IMG/VR virus record: IMGVR_UViG_3300035698_005308
Span: 1-23,289 of that record
From: a virus
Direction: 5' to 3' (one strand)
Length of the DNA stretch: 23,289 nt
The notes under the pieces were generated by a model. The model did not search any database and was not told where the DNA came from. It saw only the letters and a list, made by a program, of their open reading frames with translations. Positions 1 through 23,289 of this stretch are shown here, piece by piece. The position numbers were made by a program, and so were the translations under genes. Every line of letters begins with the position of its first letter. Position 1 is the stretch's first letter.

Positions 1-457
1 CCCAAGCCTCAACAGATGAATTCTCCCGAGCCACAACAGATGAATTATCCCAAGCCTCAACAGATGAATTCCCCCAAGCCTCAACAAATGAATTCCTCTG
101 AGCCACAACAAATGAATTCTTAACAAAAATCCTTTGTCCTCGGCGTTTTTGCCAACTTTTATCGTTGATAATAAACCGTTCATCAATTACTCTTTTTAAT
201 GCTTCTTTCATTTCCTTTTCAGCAAATTCCCCACTAAACCATTCAGGCTTGTAATCTTGGTCAACTCGTATCCCCCAATTATTCATATTGTGATTAAAAA
301 TATCTCCATCTTTTGGCGATAATTCAACACGAACAAAATCGGGATTTCGAGTATCATCTTTTAACCTTGCTTTTTTGATTAAATCTTCGTGGTTGTCAGA
401 ATCTAAATCGTAAAGTGTTTTGTTTTTTGTGATTACCCCTGAGAAAAATTGACACAT
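1..457 (-). CDS. Partial phage protein with C-terminal 8-residue tandem repeats
   Basis: The start ATG is at 457..455, with AAAGGAGC about 5 bases upstream. The frame stays open to the left edge, so the C-terminus is missing. About 152 codons are visible. The N-terminus reads MCQFFSGVIT, followed by HEDLIKKARLKDD and FVRVELSPKDGD, then a charged helical stretch (EWFSGEFAEKEMKEALKRV). I have a general memory of phage proteins that start this way, but I know no function for them. From about residue 112 the sequence becomes repeats of the form NSSVEAWx, five copies before the edge. Alternating small and hydrophobic residues in such repeats suit a solenoid or beta-helix. The gene begins 14 bases after the stop of the hydrolase gene, so it is probably in the same operon. 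The function is unknown. The reading frame is secure because the repeats are multiples of three and the frame is open throughout. Confidence 0.8.
   Translation of the reverse strand, partial: MCQFFSGVITKNKTLYDLDSDNHEDLIKKARLKDDTRNPDFVRVELSPKDGDIFNHNMNNWGIRVDQDYKPEWFSGEFAEKEMKEALKRVIDERFIINDKSWQKRRGQRIFVKNSFVVAQRNSFVEAWGNSSVEAWDNSSVVARENSSVEAW
3..120 (-). repeat. 24-bp coding tandem repeat, about five copies
   Basis: Units start at 3, 27, 51, 75 and 99, each 24 bases long, and the last is cut to 22. All five contain GATGAATT or AATGAATT in phase, and four contain an EcoRI-like GAATTC. Read on the minus strand they encode NSSVEAW plus one variable residue (G, D, E, R). Copies differ at only a few positions, such as Ser/Phe at residue 3, Glu/Val at residue 5 and Trp/Arg/Gln at residue 7. 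The array continues beyond the left edge to an unknown length. Confidence 0.95.
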
Positions 458-1151: not shown

Positions 1152-1248
1152 GAGGCCGTAAGTATGCCGCTAGACAAAAAAGAGCAGCGTTCAAACTTCG
1201 ACTGCTCTTTATACTTACGACCTCTGTTAATTTGGTTAAGCCTAGCGG
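1152..1248 (-). promoter_or_regulatory. Pseudoknotted leader RNA upstream of the lysin operon
   Basis: Read 5' to 3' on the minus strand, this contains three helices. P1 pairs 1248..1240 with 1175..1167 (9 bp). P2 pairs 1224..1211 with 1165..1152 (14 bp). P3 pairs 1210..1202 with 1187..1179 (9 bp) around a 14-base loop. P1 and P2 cross, giving an H-type pseudoknot with P3 stacked directly on P2. The single imperfect position in P1 (1241/1174) and in P2 (1220/1156) is a G-U pair on the minus strand but a mismatch on the plus strand, and the same holds for a possible tenth P3 pair (1201/1188). The structure therefore belongs to the RNA transcribed from the minus strand. It ends 9 bases before GGAGGTG of the next gene. 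Cis-regulation of translation or termination is inferred. I do not match it to a known riboswitch class. Confidence 0.72.
1176..1210 (-). terminator. Terminator-like hairpin inside the pseudoknot element
   Basis: On the minus strand the P3 helix AAAGAGCAG / CTGCTCTTT is followed by a run of Ts (TTTTTT counting the end of the stem). This is the layout of an intrinsic terminator for the ribbon-helix-helix gene. The loop is long (14 bases) and the stem only about half GC, so it may be weak or conditional. It is also the inner arm of the larger pseudoknot, which raises the possibility of a termination/readthrough switch. Confidence 0.4.
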
Positions 1249-15096: not shown

Positions 15097-15125
15097 TTGA
15101 CATAATTATTTTTATACGTTATACT
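15097..15125 (+). promoter_or_regulatory. Consensus sigma70 promoter of the HNH cassette
   Basis: TTGACA (15097..15102), a 17-base spacer, then TATACT (15120..15125). The -35 box is perfect and the -10 box has one difference from TATAAT. The expected start at about 15132 coincides with the first base of the leader RNA stem. It is the strongest promoter match in the window and opposes the phage transcription direction. Confidence 0.82.
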
Positions 15126-15132
15126 ATTTATA

Positions 15133-15225
15133 TCTAACAGAAGCTTGGTATTTTTTTGTCCACAATCGGCGGTGAGTAAGGTAGAAATTCTTAACCGAGT
15201 TTCTGTTAGAAACCTGAAAACCGCC
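15133..15225 (+). ncRNA. Structured leader RNA with pseudoknot upstream of the HNH gene
   Basis: Stem A pairs 15133..15149 with 15194..15210, 17 bp. Its only non-Watson-Crick pairs are G15143-U15200 and U15146-G15197, which are G-U on the plus strand and mismatches on the minus strand, so the plus strand is the structured RNA. The loop contains GGCGGT (15168..15173), which is complementary to ACCGCC (15220..15225) beyond the stem, giving a crossing 6-bp helix. A small hairpin 15177..15180 / 15190..15193 may form inside. The stem starts at the predicted transcription start, and the ribosome site GAGGTG follows the structure. The stem is secure as a signal. The pseudoknot helix is shorter and less certain. 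It is too short for a group I intron and lacks recognisable intron core elements. Confidence 0.62.
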
Positions 15226-15245
15226 TTTAATTTTGAGGTGAAGAG

Positions 15246-15602
15246 ATGCCAAAAGGATATAAGCATACCGAAAAGACTAAAAGAAAAATTAGTAAAAATC
15301 ATGCCAAATATTGGCTTGGTAAAAAAAGATTGGATATATCTAGAGAAAATCATTATAATTGGAAAAATGGAACTCATAAAAGTAGAGGATATGTTATGAT
15401 TCGTAAATATATTTTTTGTGATAAAAAAATTAACAGAAGTCGTCTTGTTATGGAAAAGAAACTTGGTAGATTTCTTAAACCCGAAGAAATTGTTCATCAT
15501 ATCAATAGAATTAAAGATGATGATAGACCTGAAAATCTTAAACTCTTTCTCAATCATAGTGAACATGCACGTTTTCATAAATCTAGTCGTAGTCCGAAGT
15601 AG
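15246..15602 (+). CDS. NUMOD3/HNH homing-type endonuclease
   Basis: A 118-residue basic protein. The N-terminus MPKGYKHTEKTKRKISKNHA is a NUMOD3-type DNA-binding helix, as found in phage homing endonucleases. The C-terminal half has the HNH layout: VHHINRIKDDDRPENLKLFL with the paired His, the Asn-containing centre (RPENL), and a final His in HARFH. GAGGTG lies 5 bases before the ATG. It nicks or cuts DNA and spreads into cognate sites lacking the gene. It is free-standing, since no intron or intein surrounds it. The reverse-strand reading across the same bases is a shadow. Its 3' end overlaps the convergent nozzle gene by 20 bases. Confidence 0.88.
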   Translation: MPKGYKHTEKTKRKISKNHAKYWLGKKRLDISRENHYNWKNGTHKSRGYVMIRKYIFCDKKINRSRLVMEKKLGRFLKPEEIVHHINRIKDDDRPENLKLFLNHSEHARFHKSSRSPK

Positions 15603-18492
15603 TCAGATGGATTATTATCGCTAAAATATTTAAAGGATACGGCCCGGCTTGAGTTATAACTACATAACCATCCCTATCCCATGCGCTAGGTTGTAAAATC
15701 TGTTGATCGCCGCTGAATGTTTCAATAAAATCACCCGAAGAACCGCTCTTAGGCAAGAAGTCAAATTCATCTTGGGTATCAGTATTTCCCGCTTTCATCT
15801 TTAAACTTTCGTGGACTCTAACTACTATTTTATTGATTCGTTTCAATTTCCCCTGAGCTGTATCCATGCCTGAACCTGCTTCAATACGCATAGGTTTTAA
15901 ATATGGCGTAAATCTTAATCCAGCGTGTATTTCCCCTCCACCGTTAGCAGGTGTGGTTATTGCGGCCACCCCGCCCGCCGTTACCACTGCTGTCGTAGCG
16001 GTATCTCCATCAATGAATAAATCAACGGTTTCCGCTACAAGATGAGTCAGACCTGTAACAGACGTAGAACATTTTCTGACTTCGCCCCCTGAGACATACG
16101 TCGTATAAGCGGTAGTATTAACAGCTACGCCTACGGTAGCGGTTGTATTTAATTGAAAGGTATCGCCTGACACACCAGCTACTTTGTATTTAGTGCGATT
16201 GACTTCTGTCATCCCCAATACACCCCTGACAATAACTATATCGCCATTGGAAAAACCATGCCCCGTAGCAGTCATCACCCCGGTAGTAGCTTTTGTTATG
16301 GCGGTAATCGGCTTCGGACTGTCTAAGGTAAGCCCACTGTCCACAAAGAAAGCATCCTCTTGTTCGCTACCATAATCCATCGGCTTGAAATATTCTATGT
16401 AACGAACTGTAGAACCATTTATTGTCCTTTTCACGATTATCCAAACTTCATCATTAGCACCATCACCGGGGATAACAGCGACAGTTTCTACAACTGCGTT
16501 TCCCGCCCCGAAAGAACCGCCTAAAATTTGTCTTGACCATGCGAGAACATCTTGATTGACTTGTCGAGTAAGACAAGCAAGTTCACCATCGGATCGTACA
16601 CACCATAAAATATTATAAGGAGATTGCTGATATGCCATCTCTACGATTCCATCGCCAGTGATATGCTCTGCAAGAACCGTAGCGTCAAATGCGCTTTCAA
16701 TATATTTGTTATCACTACTCATAAAACTCTTTCCAATAAATTCTCTAACAATTTTAGAATTACGTTGAACATAGAAAAGAGAGTCGCCCATTTTCTTCGG
16801 AGTAACACCTAAAGAGCCGTATGTAATTTCTCTTTTGATTGTAATATTAGTCGGAGTAATAGCAACTTCGTCGTTACCTGAACTCAAACTAAAAACACCT
16901 CCAAAAGTTCCCATTGCTAAAAACTTTCCAGAAGAAAACCATCGTATCGCATTGACTTGTTCTGAACCGATTGTATAAGTAAAAGCGTCTCCAGCGTTTA
17001 CGCCTACCGTCATATCTTCGTAATCGCCGGATACAGAAACCCAAGATTTCTGAGGAGCATTATTAATATTGGCAAAATGTATTCTTTGCTCAAAAATACT
17101 TACACAAGTAGGGCAATCATCTGAATCGTCAGCGCCGAATGGGTCGCCTGTGGTCGTAGGATGTGCTACACCCTGATCAGCCGTATCAGTCCCATTCGTT
17201 AAGACCTCACCAAGCGTGTACGCCGCATCCCTATCTTTTACCCTGTATGTTTTTGTAGTAAGTACCTCGACAATCACACAAGTGCTTCCGCTTGTATTAC
17301 CTGTTACCGTCTCTCCTGCGCTCCATGCCCCTCCGGGCGCTACATCTAAAGTTAAGAGTTCAGGAGCGTAATTAGCAATAGCAAAAGTTATTACATCAGG
17401 GGCGTAAGCTGTTGTAGGTACAGTATAGTCCGCAGTTTGTAAAGCCTCGCCTTTTACTAAAATTAATTCATCTATCCATCCATCAAAATAATTAGCAGGG
17501 CCACTTTCGTATGCTCCAATCCATAAATCAGCAGCTAAACTTCCAACATTATTAGTGCCAAAAGCAGTAGATACGGTTAAAATCTGTGATACTCCATCTA
17601 TAAAAATTAATCCAGTAGTAATATTTCTAACAAATAAAAGAGTATACCATGTATCGTCAGCTAATCCATTCCAGGCGCTAGTCATTGTATAGGTTCCTTT
17701 TGCGGTGCCATCTACAAAATTCATAACTATTTTATGAGCTGCGTCTTTATAAATATTCCAATAATGCGTTCCATCAACAAATTGGGAGAATAAAAATTGA
17801 ATGCCTGTTTTATCGTCAAATTTTACTCGACAGCCAATAGAAAAACTACCCACCCCAAAAGAAAAATCTGCATGATCAGCTACGGTTAGATAATCGCTAT
17901 CGCCATCTAATAAAAGAGAAGCTCCTCCAAATACATATTGAGCCGTATCTATTTGAGCCGTTCCTTGCGCTGCAGGCGTATGTGTACTTGTTTCATCGGT
18001 AATAGTAGTCGAGCCATCGGTTCCGTTAAGATGGAGCATCATTTTAATATTAGTATTCCAAGTGAGAGCGTTGCGGGTAAGTTTCCGAGGTTTATATGAA
18101 GGATGAGTTATCCACATCGTATCTGCGTCTTGAGCGAATTGTAAATCGAATAAATCAGCTTCAAGATAGGGGGATGCAATCTCATACGCAGAACCAGAAG
18201 ATAATAGTTGCCCTTGATTAGCGTAAAATCTGCAATACCTATCTCCAAACTCTATTATATAGGCTTGAGTAATTGAAAACTGGAAAGGTACAAGGCGGGT
18301 TTTTCTATCAGAGTCTTTTACTTCGGAAACATAATACGTACCGGGACGGCGCTTAGCGCCACCATAGGGAAGATTAATAAAATTTTCTAATGTCTTTACG
18401 CCTGAGTAATATCGCTCGACATCTGTCCTGCCATCTAAATACGGAGAAAGTTCACCAGAAGCGAAGGAATTGAGAATAGTCGAAGTTTTCAT
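15583..18492 (-). CDS. Tail nozzle protein (T7 gp12-like) with inserted LamG domain
   Basis: A 969-residue protein. The first 150 residues follow the tail tubular protein B pattern (NSFASGELSPYLDGRTDVER, then YYSGVKTLENFINLPYGGAK and RRPGTYYV), as do the later parts (VSVSGDYEDMTVG; AIRWFSSGKFLAMGTFGGVF; VREFIGKSF; GPYPLNILAIII at the C-terminus). Between about residues 150 and 362 sits a LamG/concanavalin-like jelly roll: a start strand MMLHLNGTDGS, GGASLLLDGDSDYLTVADHA, WYTLLFVRN, FIDGVSQ and FDGWIDELILVKG. The nozzle forms the distal tube of the short tail. LamG domains bind glycans, so I infer an extra receptor-contact domain. The start at 18492 has AGAGG about 12 bases upstream. Confidence 0.85.
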   Translation of the reverse strand: MKTSTILNSFASGELSPYLDGRTDVERYYSGVKTLENFINLPYGGAKRRPGTYYVSEVKDSDRKTRLVPFQFSITQAYIIEFGDRYCRFYANQGQLLSSGSAYEIASPYLEADLFDLQFAQDADTMWITHPSYKPRKLTRNALTWNTNIKMMLHLNGTDGSTTITDETSTHTPAAQGTAQIDTAQYVFGGASLLLDGDSDYLTVADHADFSFGVGSFSIGCRVKFDDKTGIQFLFSQFVDGTHYWNIYKDAAHKIVMNFVDGTAKGTYTMTSAWNGLADDTWYTLLFVRNITTGLIFIDGVSQILTVSTAFGTNNVGSLAADLWIGAYESGPANYFDGWIDELILVKGEALQTADYTVPTTAYAPDVITFAIANYAPELLTLDVAPGGAWSAGETVTGNTSGSTCVIVEVLTTKTYRVKDRDAAYTLGEVLTNGTDTADQGVAHPTTTGDPFGADDSDDCPTCVSIFEQRIHFANINNAPQKSWVSVSGDYEDMTVGVNAGDAFTYTIGSEQVNAIRWFSSGKFLAMGTFGGVFSLSSGNDEVAITPTNITIKREITYGSLGVTPKKMGDSLFYVQRNSKIVREFIGKSFMSSDNKYIESAFDATVLAEHITGDGIVEMAYQQSPYNILWCVRSDGELACLTRQVNQDVLAWSRQILGGSFGAGNAVVETVAVIPGDGANDEVWIIVKRTINGSTVRYIEYFKPMDYGSEQEDAFFVDSGLTLDSPKPITAITKATTGVMTATGHGFSNGDIVIVRGVLGMTEVNRTKYKVAGVSGDTFQLNTTATVGVAVNTTAYTTYVSGGEVRKCSTSVTGLTHLVAETVDLFIDGDTATTAVVTAGGVAAITTPANGGGEIHAGLRFTPYLKPMRIEAGSGMDTAQGKLKRINKIVVRVHESLKMKAGNTDTQDEFDFLPKSGSSGDFIETFSGDQQILQPSAWDRDGYVVITQAGPYPLNILAIIIHLTTSDYD

Positions 18493-18496
18493 TTTT

Positions 18497-18643
18497 TTAC
18501 TTGACCTCTATCTTTAAATTGTGAATCAATCCGCTCATACACGTTTTCACTGGAATCCTCTCAATGTCAAACCTTCTGAAATAATTTTTGATGGTCGTAA
18601 ACTTTAAATTTTTATTCTCGTGCAGTTTCCCATGAATCTTCAT
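18497..18643 (-). CDS. Possible small basic protein between tail genes
   Basis: An open frame of 48 residues from ATG 18643, rich in Lys and Arg (MKIHGKLHENKNLKFTTIKN at the start, ending IHNLKIEVK). It overlaps the end of the tail tube A gene in another frame and then fills the 119 bases before the nozzle gene. AGGAGG lies about 18 bases upstream, too far for a normal ribosome site, and no other start is better. The frame could therefore be chance. If real, it would be a small DNA- or RNA-contacting or assembly factor. Confidence 0.28.
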   Translation of the reverse strand: MKIHGKLHENKNLKFTTIKNYFRRFDIERIPVKTCMSGLIHNLKIEVK

Positions 18644-19397
18644 CAAATTTCTGAGAACTTCCCTCCTGCGCATCGACCGCTTTCGCTTTACTGAGTTTTT
18701 TATCAAATAATTCCTCTGCCGCGAGTCTTAACTTCGAGTCATTCGTTGTCGCTATAGTCATCTCTGCGGCAAGTTTGTAGCAAAATGCCATTATAAAAGC
18801 TGTAGAAAATTCTGTCGTAGTCGTTATCTGAGCTATGTATTTTATTTTTATACTTGTTTCGTTAGTAAGAAGTCTAGCGCCTTCGATTACAAACACGTCA
18901 TCTTCTTCTGTTGTCCTGATCACACGCAGACAATCAGTAGGCAAAGCATAGGCGTGGTCAAACTCAAATTCAGGGATTACAGCCTCAATTCCCGGTGAGG
19001 TAAAAGCGGTATCAGGGTCAGACGTAGAATAAACATATAATATGTCGCTTTCCCAGAACCAATACCCTGTGGCAGTACAAGCGGCGGCCGAGGCGACTTC
19101 CGTTCCTTCTGTACCGTCAAAATCAACCGAAGCTGGCTCAGTAGTAAGCGCGGCTTGCCAGACATTCGTTGTCCCTTCTGCTGTCCATGTCTCAACCTCT
19201 CCGCCTAATTCCGTAAGCGTCGCCCTCTTTATAGCGAAGTTCCACGGATGTTCTTCCAGTAATTCTTCACGAACCGACTCATAAATGTCATTCATTATCC
19301 GCGCTTGCTCAGTTAAATCTCCATCAAGTTGAGCTTGCGTTACTTTCTCCGCGCCTATTATTCGTAATGATTTATTTTGGATTTCAAGTTCAGTCAT
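18612..19397 (-). CDS. Tail tube protein A (T7 gp11-like adaptor)
   Basis: A 261-residue protein starting MTELEIQNKSLRIIGAEKVT, followed by YESVREELLEEHPWNFAIKR, the hallmark beginning of T7 gp11-type gatekeeper proteins (the ring that connects portal and nozzle). Later parts include the beta-rich middle with ATGYWFWESDILYVYS, the region FDHAYALPTDCLRVIR, and a C-terminal helix (AFIMAFCYKLAAEMTIATTN). Ribosome site GGAGGGAA lies inside the end of the ligase-like gene, with which it overlaps by 8 bases, so its translation is coupled to that gene. Confidence 0.88.
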   Translation of the reverse strand: MTELEIQNKSLRIIGAEKVTQAQLDGDLTEQARIMNDIYESVREELLEEHPWNFAIKRATLTELGGEVETWTAEGTTNVWQAALTTEPASVDFDGTEGTEVASAAACTATGYWFWESDILYVYSTSDPDTAFTSPGIEAVIPEFEFDHAYALPTDCLRVIRTTEEDDVFVIEGARLLTNETSIKIKYIAQITTTTEFSTAFIMAFCYKLAAEMTIATTNDSKLRLAAEELFDKKLSKAKAVDAQEGSSQKFDEDSWETARE

Positions 19398-20478
19398 AAT
19401 TTCCCTCCAGCCGTACGCAGAGCAAAGCTAACAAAACAATCCAAGTTCCCGCAATCGAAGCGTACCGCAAAGTTGTCTGACCACTCATGTTAATTAATAT
19501 AATCAATACAGATGCACTCAAACAATAAGTTAATCTATTTTTATCTTTTTTAAAAAAGAATTTTTTAAATATATTATAAATAAACATACAAAAAATAATA
19601 ACAATTGGCGCACCTAGTTCTAGTGCTAAATGGGCGTAGTCATTATGCGCGCGCCTTGTCTCATTTCTTCCCATAACATTCTTTTTTACTTTAAGCACTT
19701 TCTCGGTAAAGGTCGAGTATCCATGTCCGAGAAAAGGTCTTTTAAAAATCTCTTTAACCATGTCTGTCCAAACTTGAGGCCGACTGCAAGTAAATTTCGC
19801 TTTTACATAATGATAATTAGATAAAAACAATCCCATGCCGACTAGAATAATTAAAGCTAATACAATCCACTTCTTAAAGCTATATGATAAAAAGCAAAGT
19901 CCTAAAAAACAGGAGAATATCGGGCTTACTGATTTAGATAAAAGAAGTGTTACTGTCGGCACTACCGCAAGCAAAGGATGGACGAAAAACATCAACGGCA
20001 AAGCCATAGCCGAATACTGCCCTAGTTGAGAATGGCTCTCCATCATTCCATTTATTACGTAGGAATGTTTCCACACTAAATTTATATCAAAGAGCTGGAA
20101 TGAAGTAACGATTAAATTTATTATTGATACCGCAAGTATCGGGATTAAAAACTGTTTCGCATCTCCCGAATAACAAACTACTAAATAAAAGAGCAATACG
20201 CCACAAAATACATATATGAAGTTCCCACACGAAAACCAGAAATTAAACCATTCTTGACTTGGTACGCCATCAAAGAATACTCTTACAAGTGCAAGTAAGA
20301 GAAACGCGGTAATATGCCAAATCTTTAATTTTCTTTTTTGTTCAGAAATTAGACCTATCGCGAATAGGACAAATATCCCGATTATAAAAAACATCCCTCT
20401 TGCCATGCCTACTTTGTAGTCTTTAAATACAAAGATAGGCGATAGCAAGAGAAATATTTTAAGAACCTTATCAAACAT
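19390..20478 (-). CDS. O-antigen ligase/polymerase-like polytopic membrane protein
   Basis: A 362-residue protein with about ten hydrophobic spans. A periplasmic loop contains RPQVWTDMVKEIFKRPFLGH then GYSTF (about residues 234-258) and ARRAHNDYAHLALELGAPIV style sequence (about 277-292; Arg and His-Asn). These are the Wzy_C/WaaL-type signature features: R...W, PF.G.G, HN. Such enzymes polymerise or transfer lipid-linked polysaccharide in the periplasmic leaflet of the inner membrane. The gene starts in a one-base overlap with the upstream stop (TAATG) and ends overlapping the tail tube gene by 8 bases, so it is fully integrated in the structural operon. A serotype-converting or exclusion role is inferred. 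Distinguishing ligase from polymerase by eye is not possible. Confidence 0.8.
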   Translation of the reverse strand: MFDKVLKIFLLLSPIFVFKDYKVGMARGMFFIIGIFVLFAIGLISEQKRKLKIWHITAFLLLALVRVFFDGVPSQEWFNFWFSCGNFIYVFCGVLLFYLVVCYSGDAKQFLIPILAVSIINLIVTSFQLFDINLVWKHSYVINGMMESHSQLGQYSAMALPLMFFVHPLLAVVPTVTLLLSKSVSPIFSCFLGLCFLSYSFKKWIVLALIILVGMGLFLSNYHYVKAKFTCSRPQVWTDMVKEIFKRPFLGHGYSTFTEKVLKVKKNVMGRNETRRAHNDYAHLALELGAPIVIIFCMFIYNIFKKFFFKKDKNRLTYCLSASVLIILINMSGQTTLRYASIAGTWIVLLALLCVRLEGNYD

Positions 20479-20876
20479 TATTGAGGCGGTGGCCCGTAAT
20501 AAACGAACACTGTGCCTTCTGATAAAGCGATTCCTAAGCCTTCACTAAAATAAATTGGCTTTGCGAACCATTTAGTCTGAGAATCATACTGTGTTGCTTC
20601 TCCAATCTCATCATCTAATGGATAGGTAGAATGGTCGTTAATTTCGGCTGTTGTATCGCAATCCTTAATTCCTGCAAAAGAACTCGATGCATCAGCAAAA
20701 ATTGACCAACCATATATCCAAACTCCGTCAGTTGTAGCTATAGTCGTTCCTGCTGTCTCGTATGGCCCATAGGTTTTTAAGCCATATCGAGCTGACGTTG
20801 CGTATAATGGAGTCGCGGCTAAAGCGAACATCAACGCCATTACGATAAACAAAACTAAAAACTTCATGTTTCTCAT
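20478..20876 (-). CDS. Small protein with Sec signal peptide next to the capsid genes
   Basis: A 132-residue protein starting MRNMKFLVLFIVMALMFALA then ATPLYATSARYG, a signal peptide with cleavage near LYA/TSA. I kept the ATG at 20876 because GGAGGG is 6 bases upstream. The mature part is beta-rich with many aromatic residues (DGVWIYGWSIFADASSSFAG; VFVYYGPPPQ). It lies between the capsid-associated gene and the O-antigen ligase-like gene and overlaps the latter by one base. The neighbourhood suggests it acts in the envelope together with the ligase-like protein. No family is recognised. Confidence 0.62.
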   Translation of the reverse strand: MRNMKFLVLFIVMALMFALAATPLYATSARYGLKTYGPYETAGTTIATTDGVWIYGWSIFADASSSFAGIKDCDTTAEINDHSTYPLDDEIGEATQYDSQTKWFAKPIYFSEGLGIALSEGTVFVYYGPPPQ

Positions 20877-20904
20877 CGTTTCCCTCCCTCTATAAAGGTT
20901 TTAA

Positions 20905-21375
20905 TTATTCGTAACTGTAAAGAACTACGAGTTTAATTGTTCCTGATGCTGTCGCTCCACCCGTTGTGATGATGATTTGCCTGTCTGTGGTTGTAGCGCC
21001 TGCGATTGAAACTCCGTTTGCATCTTCCTCATCAACCTTATACGATTTTCCACCGATCGCATTGGTTCGTTGTACTTGGTTTGCTGTATTCCACGTTGAA
21101 GAAACCGCGATGTAACGGTCTGCATCCTCATAATCTCCGACTGTCAGTGTTACGCTGCTTCCGAGCGCGTCGCATTGCAAGATAACCTCGATAACGTGTG
21201 CGCCTCTTGGCAGATACTCACCTATTTCGATGATACTACCTGAAAGAATAGCATCTGCTTCGTAAGTATCGTGCAATACACGCACATTACCCGCCTGTAA
21301 CCCCGGAGCCATGATGTTGGAAGCTACAGGGTTGTCGGCAAGCGTCCTATTCGTACCCTTATATGTTGTTGCCAT
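20905..21375 (-). CDS. Capsid-associated beta-rich protein (possible decoration/head protein)
   Basis: A 156-residue protein, no signal, starting MATTYKGTNRTLADNPVASN. It has a beta-rich body with VLHDTYEADAILSGSIIEIG then PRGAHVIEVILQCDALGSSV and a C-terminal strand KLVVLYSY. GGAGGAGG precedes the ATG. Its location directly after the major capsid gene, and the small beta-sandwich composition, suggest a head decoration or stabilising protein as seen in many phages. I cannot name a family. Confidence 0.62.
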   Translation of the reverse strand: MATTYKGTNRTLADNPVASNIMAPGLQAGNVRVLHDTYEADAILSGSIIEIGEYLPRGAHVIEVILQCDALGSSVTLTVGDYEDADRYIAVSSTWNTANQVQRTNAIGGKSYKVDEEDANGVSIAGATTTDRQIIITTGGATASGTIKLVVLYSYE

Positions 21376-21407
21376 TATTAATCCTCCTCCTTAGTTAATA
21401 AGTTACA

Positions 21408-22283
21408 TTAAGTCTCGTCACAAAGAATTTCTATAACTTTATCTTCGTCAAGTCTGCTTGAACCGATTCCAAGATGAGCCTGAACTCTCGTTGCCATGTT
21501 CTTGGTGATGTCAATAGATACGTCAGTCGTGATGTCTCTCGCAATCGCAAGCCCTAAACCTGACTGCGCCCAACACATAACTCTACGATAAGAACTGGAG
21601 TCTGTATCAAGAAGAGTCTGCGAAATCAAGATGAACTTAAACCCTAAGAACGTGTCAATTTGACCATGTACTAATGCTTTAACAGAGTTATAATCAGCAC
21701 TTTTTATTTCAGTAGTTTTAAGTAAATCACGAAGTTGCGTTCCTGTTAATGCGATGAATCTCGGTTCCATGTCATCAACGTCGTTGTTATCGAGAATCAT
21801 TTTTGCATCAAGTAACTTCTGAATAGTCAATCCAGATGCGCCGACTGCGATAACATTACCAGCAGGAAATGTTACGGTATCTCCACCTGCTTTGCCGATG
21901 TATGATGTTGCAAACGCCTGGGTGATAATCTCATCATCGATTGAACGCCCTAACGAGTACGAAGCATTGATTGTGTATTTATTGGTGGGGTCTTGGAGCA
22001 TTTTCAATTCATCTTCTTTATCAATCAAATCGCCCCAGTCGTAATCGACCATAGAAACCTTGCGTCTCTGGTGCTGCGTATTTAATACTGGTGTATCTGC
22101 ATGGCGGGTTGTTCTTTTTCGTGCGGCGGTCTTGGCTATCTGATCCATGTAGGTATCTTCGCCAACTACTCCTGATTTTAATAATACTGAATTACGGAGC
22201 CGTGAGCCTTTCTGTTGGGAAAGGAGTATCACGTCCGCGTTAAACTGCTTAACTAAAGCAGCATCAACAGTGTATAGTCCCAT
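21408..22283 (-). CDS. Major capsid protein (T7-like podovirus type)
   Basis: A 291-residue protein starting MGLYTVDAALVKQFNADVIL. Capsid-like features are QQKGSRLRNSVLLKSGVVGE, the ADTPVLNTQHQRRKVSMVDY stretch (like the N-arm/E-loop region of HK97-fold capsids in this group), DWGDLIDKEDELKML, and the C-terminal segment with MCWAQSGLGLAIARDITTDV. Its position after a scaffold-like gene and before decoration and gp11-like genes fits. AAGGAGATTAACG is the ribosome site. At 291 residues it is shorter than T7 gp10A (about 345), so the insertion domains may be reduced. Confidence 0.82.
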   Translation of the reverse strand: MGLYTVDAALVKQFNADVILLSQQKGSRLRNSVLLKSGVVGEDTYMDQIAKTAARKRTTRHADTPVLNTQHQRRKVSMVDYDWGDLIDKEDELKMLQDPTNKYTINASYSLGRSIDDEIITQAFATSYIGKAGGDTVTFPAGNVIAVGASGLTIQKLLDAKMILDNNDVDDMEPRFIALTGTQLRDLLKTTEIKSADYNSVKALVHGQIDTFLGFKFILISQTLLDTDSSSYRRVMCWAQSGLGLAIARDITTDVSIDITKNMATRVQAHLGIGSSRLDEDKVIEILCDET

Positions 22284-22432
22284 CGTTAATCTCCTTTGTT
22301 AATGTTTAATTTCGTCGATGTAAGCGTGTCCCTTTCGGGGGCTAACAAAGTAAATAAGTTTTTGGGGCTCAACACCGTTGAGCGTATCCACTACTAGCAA
22401 CTATCGGGGGCTTTCCGTGTCCTTTAGTTGCT
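22284..22432 (-). promoter_or_regulatory. Structured leader of the capsid gene
   Basis: The 149 bases between the scaffold stop and the capsid start hold several signals, read on the minus strand. AGCAACTA (22432..22425) and TAGTTGCT (22403..22396) form an 8-bp stem directly after the stop. GCTCAAC-GGT-GTTGAGC (22383..22367) is a perfect 7-bp hairpin with a 3-base loop. CCC-GAAA-GGG (22339..22330) is a small stem with a GNRA-type loop. AGCCCC occurs three times (22412.., 22369.., 22343..), two of them as AGCCCCCG. GGACACG occurs twice. None is followed by a T run. A regulatory or processing leader that sets capsid expression is the likely meaning. Confidence 0.55.
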
Positions 22433-23289
22433 TTACTGCCCTAACTTCAATTTATACAGCCTTGCCCTTTTCTCGACAAACTCCTGATGCCGGGGGTCTG
22501 AGGCGTTATGCAATGGGCTTTTAGTATCAGCTTCCATTGTTTTAATTTCAGCGTCTGCTTCCGCAGGAGTTTGAGTCAAGCCTTGTCCTTTACCGATAAG
22601 TAAATCTTCGCTCATTACCTTGCCGATATTAGAAAAAGCCTCAATCACAACAGGATGGTTTCCGATTCCCTGCTTGAAAGCCGCAATCCCTTCTGGGGGG
22701 ACAAAAGTATCATAGACTTTATTCGCCAGCGCTACATTCTGCCCGTATGCCCCTCCCCACTTCTTATGAAGGTCGGCTACGGAGTCATTGTAAATCTTCT
22801 CATTATTCTCATTCATGCCGGAGAATTGACCTATGCCGTAATTCATGTAAAATTTATATAAACCATCAAACTGTTTAGGCGACATTCCAAGTTTATGCGC
22901 TTCCGTTCGAAATCCTTTTACCATCTCTTCATCCATCGGAAAGTCTTTAGGAATTTCCAAGTCAGTTGGTATTTTATACGCTTCGGCATTTTCAGGATGC
23001 CCAAGTTTCTTATGGAACATACTTATTGCTTCGGTATCGTTTTCATCTTTGGGGACAGGTAAACTTTCCCTGCCTAAGAACTTCTGCGCTGCTACTAATC
23101 CCCTATGTGCTTCATTCGCGTCTTTGTACTTTGCAAATACTGGGTCTGCCTTAATATCTTCTGGTAGCGTTGCGATATACTCTGGAGTTATTTCTTCATC
23201 TCCTCCACGTTCATTAAATAAATTACTAAAGCCTTTTCTTACGGTGTCAAGTATCCGTAAATACAACGGGTCAACAGTATCGTTTTTCA
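22433..23289 (-). CDS. Scaffold-like capsid assembly protein (5' end cut by one base)
   Basis: Reading minus-strand codons back from the right edge, the first complete codons give KNDTVDPLYLRILDTVRKGF and the codon straddling the edge is NTG, very likely the ATG start one base outside the window. The TTG at 23266 is therefore not the start. The visible 285 residues are charged and helical. LPEDIKADPVFAKYKDANEA precedes a central LGHPENAEAYKIPTDLEIP region that I associate with putative scaffold proteins of podoviruses, and the C-terminus is helical. Its position upstream of the capsid gene supports this. It would act in the cytoplasm, guiding capsid assembly. Confidence 0.72.
   Translation of the reverse strand, partial: KNDTVDPLYLRILDTVRKGFSNLFNERGGDEEITPEYIATLPEDIKADPVFAKYKDANEAHRGLVAAQKFLGRESLPVPKDENDTEAISMFHKKLGHPENAEAYKIPTDLEIPKDFPMDEEMVKGFRTEAHKLGMSPKQFDGLYKFYMNYGIGQFSGMNENNEKIYNDSVADLHKKWGGAYGQNVALANKVYDTFVPPEGIAAFKQGIGNHPVVIEAFSNIGKVMSEDLLIGKGQGLTQTPAEADAEIKTMEADTKSPLHNASDPRHQEFVEKRARLYKLKLGQ

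Follow-up and report, generated by a model that had tools for sequence, protein, structure and literature searches.

Retroregulation at the lambda tI/sib locus involves a terminator hairpin lying inside a longer stem that can be formed only by readthrough RNA; unlike the element described here, that structure has no crossing helix, acts on an upstream gene and has no adjoining ribosome binding site. An established phage lysis gene under RNA-structure control over its start site is gene e (lysozyme) of T4 (PMC3014915). As proposed for our element, a structure lies over the start of a lysis gene and the 5′ end of the transcript decides whether the site is free (PMC3014915). The two differ in which RNA is open: the short late RNA in T4, where the long one is closed, but here, by prediction, the long RNA, with the short one closed; that source describes no pseudoknot for gene e (PMC3014915). 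The leader of T4 gene 32 resembles our element in having a pseudoknot on the 5′ side of a phage ribosome binding site (PMC3014915), in that case a small H-type knot that lies 67 nt 5′ of the start codon, binds gp32 and has no inner terminator hairpin. Pseudoknots controlling translation in phages are rare, and a 2010 review described that of T4-type gene 32 as perhaps the only viral example in translational autoregulation (PMC3014915). Gene e is the system nearest in purpose to the present locus and gene 32 the nearest in form.

The locus is part of a virus record of 23,289 nt (the window, meaning the whole stretch of DNA that was analysed), in which all genes are on the minus strand except one HNH gene on the plus strand. 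The major capsid protein shares 46% identity with that of Pelagibacter phage Baldr and 42% with that of HTVC010P, suggesting that the source is an uncultured, marine-type, HTVC010P-like podovirus. Lysis timing in phages of this type is little known. Read along the minus strand, a sigma-70-like promoter (TTGACT-17-TATATT with an extended -10, 1463-1435) lies approximately 10 bases 5′ of the ATG (1425) of a small ORF of 54-61 aa (1261-1425), which is without a Shine-Dalgarno sequence. There follow the element (1248-1152), the Shine-Dalgarno sequence GGAGGUG (1143-1137), a 57-aa ORF (960-1133) and the lysin (472-963), a cell wall hydrolase (Pfam Hydrolase_2, 8.5e-14) whose N-terminus carries a hydrophobic anchor. 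The product of the upstream small ORF bears a weak resemblance to ribbon-helix-helix proteins, as judged by eye and from a low-confidence two-helix model whose sole PDB match was the plasmid copy control protein ORF56 (E 4.4). A first-pass annotation had placed the element in front of a lysin operon; the lysin is indeed in the operon, but the first gene 3′ of the element is the 57-aa ORF, an orphan for which a search for relatives found none. The intergenic gap housing the element measures 127 nt within an otherwise tightly packed genome. A TATAAA at 1213-1208 was considered as an internal promoter yielding a short lysin RNA and was rejected for want of an acceptable -35. A 152-aa ORF at the contig end owes its C-terminal repeat to tandem repeats of 24 bp in its coding sequence (window 1-120).

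Direct reading of the minus strand and recomputation of the helices confirmed that P1 and P2 cross and that a third hairpin, P3, stacks on P2, as the first-pass annotation had reported. P1 consists of 9 bp (1248-1240 with 1175-1167); its 5′ arm, CCGCUAGGC, starts 12 nt past the stop codon of the small ORF, and its 3′ arm, GUCUAGCGG, lies within the bulge between P3 and P2. P2 consists of 14 bp (1224-1211 with 1165-1152), with a 5′ arm, GAGGUCGUAAGUAU, whose first five bases are the same as in the Shine-Dalgarno sequence (GAGGU), and a 3′ arm, AUACUUACGGCCUC, whose terminal GCCUC can alternatively pair with the Shine-Dalgarno sequence. P3 consists of 9 bp (1210-1202 with 1187-1179) and a candidate tenth pair, U1201-G1188. 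The sole wobbles of P1 and P2 are G1241-U1174 and U1220-G1156, respectively, and together with the candidate P3 pair all three imperfect pairs are G-U on the minus strand and A-C on the plus strand. This pattern had been taken as good evidence that the RNA structure is under selection; it favours the transcribed strand but is weak evidence, because equal odds for the two strands would put all three wobbles on that strand in 1 of 8 cases, and the claim of selection is not supported by it. The position of the element was also as annotated, its end at 1152 lying 9 bases before the Shine-Dalgarno sequence, which starts at 1143. A further stem, P4, and a hairpin S, both absent from the earlier description, are present and are considered below.

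Taken as a whole, P2 and its crossing partner lie far beyond chance. None of 4000 dinucleotide shuffles matched the summed stacking energy of P1 and P2 (-42.5 kcal/mol) or that of the weaker helix (-17.1 kcal/mol), and P2 alone was matched in a single shuffle of 4000. Given P2, the significance of P1 is only moderate (p about 0.002-0.006): 25/4000 shuffles that kept P2 constant produced a crossing helix equal to P1 (p = 0.006), and 42/20000 shuffles produced an equal one that had an arm within the 13-nt bulge (p = 0.002). The same bulge-helix test in natural flanks, some of which include the true site, gave a helix as good as P1 in approximately 1%. The nested fold (P2+P3) has a z of -3.96. 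Within the window only 15133-15225 on the plus strand scores as well as the element, and among 7916 tiles of other phage and bacterial DNA of like G+C, one place (contig L031, around 1565-1630) was equal on both measures. At that place in L031, a phage contig (1565-1630, plus strand), interleaved inverted repeats of 9 and 12 bp, of the H-type pseudoknot form, lie in the gap that separates a capsid-like gene from the next.

The inner hairpin P3 (1179-1210) resembles an intrinsic terminator, as had been proposed: a GC-containing hairpin of 9-10 bp (-12.2 kcal/mol) is preceded by an A-run and followed by UUUUUU at 1181-1176. A simple terminator scanner (loop 3-8) omitted it because the P3 loop of 14 is too long. 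P3 may function as a terminator, and the 24 nt past its U-run (1175-1152) are all arm sequence except C1166. Because both 3′ arms are transcribed after the U-run, P1 and P2 cannot decide termination at P3, and it follows that any switch would act on translation or processing of the readthrough RNA. The earlier proposal of a switch for lysin expression can therefore be kept only in part: simple control of the terminator by P1 and P2 is impossible, whereas the idea of a switch is supported by the ability of the 3′ arms to pair alternatively with the Shine-Dalgarno sequence and the AUG.

The latter pairing is hairpin S (1129-1168), in which 1168-1163 pair with 1134-1129 at the start codon and 1159-1152 pair with 1142-1136 at the Shine-Dalgarno sequence. 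By reusing the 3′ arms of P1 and P2 (1168-1152) on the Shine-Dalgarno sequence and the AUG, hairpin S is incompatible with P2 and with the inner end of P1. With hairpin S, the local cost of opening the Shine-Dalgarno sequence, by nearest-neighbour estimate, was 8.8 kcal/mol, the highest of the 23 Shine-Dalgarno sequences scored in the window (next highest 6.4, median <2). The corresponding estimates were 8.9 kcal/mol in RNA starting past the terminator, 7.3 kcal/mol in the nested long RNA, and 4.7 kcal/mol with P1 and P2 formed and P4 off, this last figure representing reserved bases and not a pseudoknot model. Sequestration by the 3′ arms was equalled in 3.5% of shuffled upstream sequences and in 1.7% of random window segments, and hairpin S is only moderately significant (p 0.02-0.04). 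P4, which is part of the nested fold, pairs CCAAAU (1230-1235) with 1147-1142, so that its 3′ strand (1142-1147) takes up the two leading G of the Shine-Dalgarno sequence. Geometry indicates that P1 and P4 are probably mutually exclusive, because only 4 nt would be left to bridge a distance of some 20 bp between P1 and the base of P4. On sequence and computed energies, mutually exclusive pairings thus hide or expose the Shine-Dalgarno sequence.

We propose, with somewhat less than even confidence, that the element acts in cis as a structured leader of the lysin operon, with the pseudoknot as its translation-open state. Transcription from the upstream small gene would meet P3, where part of the RNA would end. 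Readthrough RNA would gain the 3′ arms of P1 and P2 at once, and the earlier-made 5′ arms would capture them to give the pseudoknot, provided that P1 can form in three dimensions. The pseudoknot would keep the 3′ arms off the Shine-Dalgarno sequence and the AUG, precluding hairpin S, and P1 should also block P4. In this way the pseudoknot would mark readthrough RNA and leave the ribosome binding site free, and translation of the lysin operon would be the outcome. RNA without the 5′ arms, arising from spurious starts or cleavage, would close via hairpin S. If true, this would be a compact way of tying lysin synthesis to one particular transcript. Given the stability of P2, intact RNA would be open at all times, so that no trigger is evident, and any factor shifting the balance would have to be postulated.

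In favour of the leader we count the crossing helices, the costs of opening the Shine-Dalgarno sequence, its sequestration by the 3′ arms, the arm sequence that directly follows the U-run, the wobbles, the 127-nt gap, an analogous arrangement before the HNH gene and the precedent of T4 gene e. Against it we count that no homologous leader was found, that P1 and hairpin S are of moderate significance, that the energies are nearest-neighbour estimates, that a trigger is not evident, and that distant lysin relatives have a plain terminator and promoter. The element is thus a statistically strong RNA fold for which the role of translational leader is plausible, if unproved. A more ambitious reading, which we consider improbable, is that the locus represents a new class of phage lysis-timing RNA, in which a terminator would sit in a bulge pseudoknot, the 3′ arms would serve as anti-ribosome-site, only readthrough RNA from the upstream regulator would give lysin, and the HNH gene would carry a related anti-sequestration pseudoknot.

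The main rival to a translational leader, although unlikely in itself, is a sib-like terminator combined with a processing site. Here P3 would end the upstream message and RNase III would cut the stacked P2+P3 stem (23 bp) of readthrough RNA, separating the upstream from the lysin message, with P1 minor or accidental. That P2 surrounds a hairpin of terminator type and is present in readthrough RNA alone is consistent with such a site, as is the z of the nested fold (-3.96), whereas P1 (p 0.002-0.006 given P2) and the complementarity between the arms and the ribosome binding site would be left unexplained. Next, and more doubtful, comes an ordinary terminator with a lengthened stem between the two genes, with P1, P4 and S as chance pairings and no switch. 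Lysin relatives carry plain terminators at the same place, and P1 and S, each improbable to a moderate degree only, emerged from a search through many candidates; however, P1 fills the bulge between P3 and P2 almost exactly (9/13 nt) and is GC-rich within a region of 35% G+C, and the cost of opening the Shine-Dalgarno sequence is the extreme of the window. The interleaved inverted repeats fold on the plus strand too (z -4.31), as would be expected of an element acting as DNA, either a protein binding site or a cruciform. The position directly before the Shine-Dalgarno sequence and the restriction of the wobbles (three of three imperfect pairs) to the transcribed strand both argue against a DNA-level element, which we consider very unlikely.

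In the HDV fold P3 has 3 bp, and P1.1 is formed by CC in L3 with the GG after P1. A divergent HDV-like self-cleaving ribozyme (minimal drz), cleaving before the lysin message, would match the strand order of the element (P1 5′, P2 5′, P3, P1 3′, P2 3′), and a 7-bp P1 starting at G1246 and then followed by GG can be drawn, with C1166. Minimal and theta phage ribozymes have the same order of P1, P2 and P3 and, like the element, are without the P4 of that fold (PMC10879173), whereas the element is without J4/2, P1.1 and a 3-bp P3 and is not next to a tRNA. Only C1166 lies between the 3′ arms of P1 and P2, so J4/2 would be one base and not C-N-A-A, which bears out the earlier remark that this region is absent; in addition, P3 has 9-10 bp and its loop, UCGAAGUUUGAACG, contains no CC for P1.1. 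A descriptor for HDV-like ribozymes recovered the control drz-Mtgn-1, in which further bases follow the catalytic C before the 3′ arm of P2 (C-N-A-A), and fitted the P1/P2 element only if no base follows the C; fits with 2-5 bases after the C used pairings other than P1 and P2. Covariance models of Rfam release 15 gave no match at gathering or permissive thresholds, in keeping with the first-pass annotation, which could name no riboswitch that the element resembled. A ribozyme of the minimal drz or theta type was rejected on J4/2, P1.1 and the 3-bp P3, and we regard it as scarcely credible.

Homologous leaders were sought via the lysin, the 57-aa, 61-aa, 176-aa and 1467-aa proteins and the capsid, and none with the element was found in the collections searched. 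The exact pattern of the 5′ half of the element had no match in viral contigs. Matches to the joined 3′ strands (6 genome, 12 viral) were dismissed as chance, because none is preceded by the core of either 5′ arm. Where compared, the contigs that are identical to the window cover only 15105-23283. The lysin relatives share only 28-33% identity and, in those inspected, have another gene order. In six viral contigs (L003, L004, L005, L008, L009 and L012) the lysin leader consists of an intrinsic terminator and then a promoter-like stretch, TTGACTTTC...TGACATACTGTTTTATAG, running into the ATG, so that the lysin start appears from its sequence to be near-leaderless. On inspection, the candidate pseudoknots of the same topology before the lysins of L008 and L009 each amounted to an intrinsic terminator plus a weak pairing upstream, with a promoter and a near-leaderless start coming next. 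As these relatives (approximately 30% identity) show a terminator, a promoter and a near-leaderless ATG, the pseudoknot is not general to this lysin family.

The two other structured regions of the window showed no sequence kinship with the element. The fold of 1463-1605 on the minus strand was no better than shuffles (z -0.87). The leader of the HNH homing endonuclease gene (window 15133-15245, plus strand) contains a 17-bp stem and a crossing helix, GGCGGU/ACCGCC, with a fold z of -4.2. Part of the ACCGCC stretch also belongs to a stem (CGCCUU with GAGGUG) over the Shine-Dalgarno sequence, and because of this overlap the knot and sequestration of the Shine-Dalgarno sequence would compete in the HNH leader. 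Within the HNH gene itself, AAATTAACAGAAGTCGT (window 15427-15443, plus strand) matches AAATTAACAGAGGTCGT in the linker and P2 arm of the element (1233-1217, minus strand) at 16/17 bases, probably by chance (p about 0.01). A sibling contig, IMGVR 3300031227_004970, is identical to the window where compared and starts at 15105, inside the HNH insertion, which suggests variation of the HNH element within the population.
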